The position numbers and the translations under genes are program-made. Positions 62,804 to 64,000 of a DNA stretch of 64,000 nt are shown one piece after another; within the stretch, counting starts at the first letter, position 1, and each line of letters opens with the position of its first letter. The notes under the pieces were generated by a model. The model ran no database searches, was not told where the DNA came from, and saw nothing but the letters and a program-made list of their open reading frames with translations. Source of the DNA: Thermomicrobiaceae bacterium (GTDB taxonomy: Bacteria; Chloroflexota; Chloroflexia; Thermomicrobiales; Thermomicrobiaceae). The stretch spans positions 38,104 through 102,103 of the forward strand of contig JADBJL010000023.1 in the NCBI GenBank assembly GCA_014874455.1, written 5' to 3'.

Positions 62804-62967
62804 CGCGTTCCTCTCGGGTGAGGATAGCATGCTCGGGAAGGAGCCAGGAGCCTGCGGCGAGGAGCGGGCGATCGGTCGGCGGGCCTCCCTCACTCTCGGC
62901 TCGGCGCGCAGGCGACTCCCTGCACCGGGCGTGCGAGCGGAGCCTGCTGAGGAGGATTCATCGGTAG

Positions 62968-63165
62968 GCGCATAGGTACGGAAGTACCTAGCGCATCCTA
63001 GCATTTCCGGGCTAGACTAGCCATAGAGGGTGACTAGCCCTCCGGTACCGGCATCGGTACCAGAACCAAAGAGTGACCGAGAGCGTTGAAGCGCGGGCTG
63101 TAGCTGGGCGCCTGGCCCGCGTGGAGCGAGTGGCGCAACCGGCCGGCGAGTTCTCGGCCGGTTTT
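62968..63165 (+). ncRNA. Candidate structured leader RNA with intrinsic terminator
   Basis: Five successive stems before the surface-protein gene: GCGC(A)TAGGTAC-GGAA-GTACCTAGCGC (62968-62994); GGGCTAG/CTAGCCC (63009-63040), which excludes the alternative pair GGCTA/TAGCC plus GAGGG/CCCTC; GGTACCG-GCAT-CGGTACC (63044-63061); CGCGGGC/GCCCGCG (63092-63121); and a terminator. No known riboswitch consensus was matched by eye. No clear promoter identified. Confidence 0.45.
63137..63165 (+). terminator. Intrinsic terminator 87 nt upstream of the surface-protein gene
   Basis: AACCGGCCG-N9-CGGCCGGTT with TTTT at 63162-63165. The best terminator in the window, and it lies before a gene rather than after one. 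Confidence 0.7.
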
Positions 63166-63251
63166 CTGTCCGAAGGGGTGCTGTGCGGGGTGTTGTCTCG
63201 ACTGGATGAGAGCTGTGTCTCAAGGCGAGACATTTACGAAAGGTACAAGCG

Positions 63252-64000
63252 ATGAGCGGGCGTGGTTCACGATCGAATGTACAGCGCAGGCGTGGTGGCT
63301 GGCCCTTCTTGTTCTGGACTGTCGCAGTGACGGTCGCCGTGCTGCTGTGGGCGAGTGTGGCGTCGTCAGTTGGGCCTTCGCCACAGTTAGTCGCGGCTAA
63401 AGCCGGCGGACGTACAGAGTGCTCCGATCATCGAAGTGGCCTGCTCTTCCTCGTGAAGTTCGAGAACGAGAACTGGGAGCACGGAGACACCGTGTCTGGT
63501 TCCGGTGTCCAGGTTACCCTCTACGACACCGACAATAACGGTGAGGTGGAGAGCTTCAGTTGGACGTCGGTGACACCGATCGACGCCGTCTACGTAAAGA
63601 GTGGTGTCGGCGCTTCTCGTTGGTATGACTACAACGAGGCTACCTCTGGGAGCGGTTCGACGATCGGTGGCAAAGAGATCAGCCATATCACGTTCTGCTA
63701 CGACGAGGATCTGACTCCGACGCCGACGGCCACCCCGACGGCGACGCCGACCGCGACTCCCACGCCGACTGAGACCCCGACGGAGACGGCGACCCCGACG
63801 GAGACGCCGACAGAGACCCCGACGGTGACGACGACGCCGGAGGGTACGCCGGAGCCGACTGAGACGCCGATCCCGACGGCCACGCCGACGGCGACGCCCA
63901 CGGCCACCCCGACGACCCCGACGGCGACGCCCACGGCCACCCCGACGGCCACGCCCACGGCCACCCCGACGGCCACGCCGACGGCCACCTCGACGACCCC
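63252..64000 (+). CDS. Secreted surface protein with Thr/Pro repeat stalk, 3' end cut by window (not in ORF track)
   Basis: ATG 63252 behind AAAGG; no stop before the window end (at least 249 codons), which is why the ORF list omits it. Signal-anchor '[21 protein letters not shown]' (about 19-39), then a small domain of about 100 aa with two Cys ('[22 protein letters not shown]', '[12 protein letters not shown]'), then from about residue 155 a run of TPT/ATPTE repeats. Same stalk type as the sortase and kinase here. Likely long cell-surface protein. Confidence 0.8.
63715..64000 (+). repeat. Degenerate CCGACGGCC(A/G)C(C/G) repeats encoding the Thr/Pro stalk
   Basis: Short tandem units of 6-12 nt (ACG-CCG-ACG-GCC type), continuing off the window. 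Codons vary (ACC/ACG, CCG/CCC), so the repeat is kept at protein level more than DNA level. Confidence 0.8.

Follow-up and report, generated by a model that had tools for sequence, protein, structure and literature searches.

A very probable class II c-di-GMP riboswitch with a terminator platform, predicted to be an ON switch for a stalked surface protein in Thermalbibacter-like Thermomicrobiaceae

A cluster of hairpins in front of a gene for a stalked surface protein raises the question of which kind of regulatory RNA, if any, is encoded at this locus. The preliminary description of the analyzed window (the whole stretch of 64,000 nt) proposed a possible new cis-regulatory RNA, for which no known class could be matched, and named an Rfam match beforehand as a refuting result. 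We searched the window with cmscan against Rfam 15 and obtained a sole match, i.e., RF01786 (c-di-GMP-II) at positions 63070–63153 (+). The match reached 63.7 bits (E-value 7e-12; gathering cut-off 53.5 bits) and covered model positions 1–84 of 84. This match rules out a new RNA class: the pseudoknotted aptamer, which is the defining unit, belongs to RF01786, and the hairpin cluster is a further instance of a described switch and not a new kind of RNA. Other parts of the preliminary description agree well with this assignment, including the layout of a riboswitch or attenuator before a stalked surface protein, here a c-di-GMP-II aptamer with an overlapping terminator, and c-di-GMP as a ligand to try. 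The hairpins themselves are present as well, and the 216-nt region folds better than 200 of 200 shuffles (z-value = −3.75).

According to the RF01786 alignment, the aptamer on the + strand comprises P1 (63070–63080/63143–63153), P2 (63082–63084/63126–63128), P3 (63091–63098/63115–63122), and a pseudoknot (63108–63112/63132–63136). P2, P3, and the pseudoknot are all intact, and P1 is weak, with 6 of 11 model pairs and the core CCG/CGG; among relatives, P1 is paired in 59.7%. Of 61 related genomes, 28 carry RF01786; all 14 control genomes lack it. Covariation among homologues was analyzed for 40 Thermomicrobia aptamers using the structure including the pseudoknot, with shuffles and slid versions as controls. 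It was strong, as indicated by 81.8% paired cells (shuffles 65.9%, slid versions 33–41%) and a covariation score of 0.467 versus 0.18. The paired fraction was 89% for P2, 97% for P3, and 100% for the pseudoknot, and compensatory changes were observed in all three, for the pseudoknot in two of its five pairs. The window shares with RF01786 the full-length aptamer, P2, P3, the pseudoknot, the GCAACCGG core, the terminator platform, and a surface-protein gene downstream, but differs in its weak P1, an A-G at model positions 11/12, and its host, a member of the Thermomicrobiota. The known c-di-GMP-II members with experimental work are mainly clostridial.

The ligand site bears on whether c-di-GMP is the likely ligand. 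Positions 69, 70, and 73, read from GCGCAACCGG, are the canonical A, A, and G in the window; we take A69, A70, G73, and A13 (model position 12) to follow the numbering of the solved aptamer. Variants of this fold occur in the order of the host, and the window aptamer also exceeds the cut-off of the c-di-GMP-II-GAG model RF03169 (53.2 bits versus 40), which would be consistent with a variant of either Rfam type (-GAG or -GCG), or with a genus-specific A11/G12 form, that senses another cyclic dinucleotide. We regard such a change of ligand as highly improbable. RF01786 outscores both variant models, and the c-di-GMP-II-GCG model (RF03170) gives 47.2 bits, which is below its cut-off of 47.9 bits. 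The two variant families are alike in fold but have a consensus G69 with A or C at position 70, whereas the window keeps A/A/G where these families differ; RF03169 is characterized by G69, A70, and G73, and the window has A69. The remaining argument for a changed ligand concerns model positions 11/12, which read A-G in the window and in both orthologues but G-A in most relatives, so that a conserved A at position 12 is replaced by G. This A is the commonest nucleotide at position 12 in the Rfam consensus and not an absolute family requirement. Same-genus paralogues carry C or A at position 12, which argues that it is not strictly constrained, and those with C also pass the RF01786 cut-off. Furthermore, if P1 were one pair shorter, A11 would adjoin it and take the place of the consensus A, which would account for the A-G swap. 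As a separate observation, an A69/C70/G73 core (GCACCCGG, GAACCCGG, or GTACCCGG) recurs in Thermomicrobia c-di-GMP-II RNAs (loci L038, L040, L050, L051, L023, L025, L026, L027, L030, and L043). It is intermediate in sequence, with the canonical A/A/G on one side and the -GCG variant of Rfam on the other, and some of these RNAs precede (TP)n surface proteins.

The c-di-GMP-II aptamer overlaps an intrinsic terminator at 63137–63170 (+), with a stem formed by 63137–63146/63154–63163 and followed by UUCUGUC. The stem bears out the clear terminator of the preliminary description: its free energy is −16.5 kcal/mol, and the three orthologues, i.e., the window and two relatives, Thermalbibacter longus (G001) and G003, each retain 10 of 10 pairs. 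The U-run fared less well, as it is short and interrupted (UUUUCUGU), two of its U are paired in the stem, and a simple terminator scan gave no call at 63137–63170; the homologous positions in G001 read UUUUUUGU. The terminator 5' arm AACCGGCCGG (63137–63146) coincides with the aptamer strand bearing the ligand-contact adenines and with the 3' side of P1. Of the 24 copies that were analyzed, most are predicted to have such an overlap. Since the same strand is used twice, the bound aptamer and the terminator are mutually exclusive, and an ON switch is predicted. With c-di-GMP bound, the pseudoknot, the ligand site, and P1 would hold 63132–63147, the terminator would be blocked, and RNA polymerase would read through into the gene at 63252. 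In the absence of the ligand, the strand would pair with 63154–63163, and transcription would end near 63165–63170.

An OFF switch, or a terminator indifferent to the ligand, would be in line with the ligand-free minimum-energy fold, which yields the terminator. Both are hardly credible, however, because the terminator uses up the ligand-site strand, so that the bound state must oppose it. Moreover, all four class II c-di-GMP riboswitches of C. difficile are ON switches, and for three of them, the controlled genes encode known or putative adhesins (PMC6200980). They resemble the window in class, in the inferred ON direction, and in the surface or adhesin target, but belong to a different phylum, and the window switch is predicted from sequence. 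We consider it very probable that the locus combines a class II c-di-GMP riboswitch with a transcription-terminator platform and serves as an ON switch for a stalked surface protein in Thermalbibacter-like Thermomicrobiaceae. This reading draws on the full aptamer match, on the conservation of the pairings and the pseudoknot, and on the use of the aptamer's AACCGGCC strand as the 5' arm of the terminator; from these features, we infer the ON direction.

The sequence upstream of the aptamer was assessed separately. The preliminary description had taken a GGAA stem and two alternative pairings of GGGCTAG as diagnostic RNA features. The stem, H1 (62968–62994), is present: its 11 bp are interrupted by a single bulge, it is capped by a GGAA loop, and it folds at −18.0 kcal/mol (z-value = −5.3). 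GGGCTAG (63009–63015) is indeed able to pair with CTAGCCC (63034–63040) or CTAGCC (63017–63022). In addition, 62960–63069 folds strongly (z-value = −4.54). The hairpins at 62968–63061 could thus represent a second, new co-transcribed regulatory RNA domain and, together with the aptamer reading, with which this is compatible, form a two-input switch; we consider this unlikely. H1 forms in three of three orthologues, and its outer arms vary in sequence and register among them yet remain complementary, which favors a transcribed hairpin. Beyond the two known congeners, no relatives of the 5' block turned up in GTDB genomes, and this covariation therefore rests on three sequences. The inner arms, however, are conserved in sequence: the core of H1 is an inverted repeat, AGGTAC-GGAA-GTACCT (62974–62989), whose arms are unchanged in the two congeners, and a related genus carries AAGTAC-N4-GTACTT comparably placed with respect to a TAGATA box, as would be expected of a DNA site. 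The AGGTAC-N4-GTACCT palindrome is probably a protein-binding (activator) site adjoining the −35 position, which is more likely than an RNA stem. An exact ARGTAC-N4-GTACYT palindrome is present at a single genomic position, and allowing one mismatch gave 11 copies versus 6 in the reversed control, so that a wider operator regulon is unsupported.

A putative promoter lies at 62989–63018 (+), with the −35 position at 62989–62994 (TAGCGC), an 18-nt spacer, and the −10 box TAGACT at 63013–63018, which lies inside GGGCTAGACT and overlaps GGGCTAG. The −35 sequence is poor in the window and reads TTGATC in both congeners, where a conserved block, CCTAGCATTTYCGGGYTAGACT, overlaps the TTGATC box 18 nt from TAGACT. 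TTGATC-18-TAGACT is the top upstream promoter in G001 and G003, and about 0.01 of shuffles reach its score. The promoter score of the window itself is weak, being reached by about 0.58 of shuffles, and the poor −35 leaves room for a transcribed hairpin. In the congeners, TAGACT is located 58–59 nt ahead of the aptamer, and similar −10 distances are found at several other loci. The promoter assignment rests on these two relatives. A transcription start near 63025 appears rather likely, driven by a promoter that has a palindromic activator site on its upstream side; this is the least certain step of our reading. With this start, the GGAA stem and GGGCTAG would sit in promoter DNA.

In both congeners, a good promoter separates H1 from the aptamer, which speaks against a second RNA domain, as does the poor conservation of the other hairpins. 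The short leader from the predicted start to the aptamer (63025–63069, +) contains hairpins at 63026–63042 and 63044–63061 and folds at −21.9 kcal/mol, and G001 folds differently. The second leader hairpin keeps two of seven pairs in G001, and one GGGCTAG pairing retains two of six in G001 and five of six in G003, i.e., it is lost in the former. Upstream of 63070, no + strand Rfam match was obtained at E-values up to 5, and matches on the opposite strand were chance-level and far under the cut-off. Upstream DNA also differs at most other c-di-GMP-II loci of the family. The features first taken as diagnostic of an RNA are therefore probably parts of a promoter. A unit in which the upstream hairpin or palindrome acts as a second sensor, either as RNA or as activator-bound DNA, and A11/G12 shifts the ligand preference is very unlikely.

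The gene behind the switch starts at 63252, 88 nt past the terminator stem, and extends to 64000 (+) as an ORF of 249 aa that is open at its 3' end, where it is cut by the contig end. AAAGG at 63239–63243 (+), 8 nt before the start codon, is the probable ribosome-binding site as read from the sequence. An inverted repeat, TGTCTCGACTGGA/TCAAGGCGAGACA, is located at 63194–63232 between the terminator and this site. The encoded protein comprises a membrane anchor or signal segment, a domain of about 100 aa without a relative in Pfam, NCBIfam, or PDB, and a (TP/TE)n stalk. The G003 orthologue (C36) of the (TP)n gene is likewise cut by a contig end; stalk repeats perhaps break the assembly.

It is known that cyclic di-GMP acts as a "settle and stick" signal, and the genes behind the c-di-GMP-II copies suit its control. 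(TP)n-stalked surface proteins follow the switch in the window, G005, and G014, and a protein with a SpaA_4 domain follows it in Thermalbibacter longus. Tandem switches precede genes for sugar transferases (Bac_transf), and the remaining genes encode a TadE-like protein, a family 2 glycosyltransferase, and a response regulator. The genome of the window contains a second c-di-GMP-II copy before a family 2 glycosyltransferase gene, and it encodes four GGDEF-domain proteins, so that c-di-GMP can be made. The riboswitch is of a known class, its context is plausible and ordinary, and the number of RNA classes stays unchanged. It ties a so far uncharacterised surface protein with a (TP)n stalk, from a thermophilic member of the Thermomicrobiota, to c-di-GMP control, and together with the related copies it delineates a small c-di-GMP-II regulon in the family, comprising stalk proteins, exopolysaccharide, Tad-type pili, and glycosyltransferases. 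A literature search of partial coverage returned no paper linking Thermomicrobium, riboswitch, and c-di-GMP. Tandem riboswitches in Thermomicrobiota have already been noted (PMC12452182), and tandem c-di-GMP-II riboswitches have been described (PMC9481103). The latter resemble copies in a related genus, each with a terminator, whereas the window copy is single. These tandem aptamers, each with its own terminator, are found at L042:2070-2319, L044:1372-1621, and L045:4098-4355, where they precede an exopolysaccharide-type sugar transferase (Bac_transf) gene.
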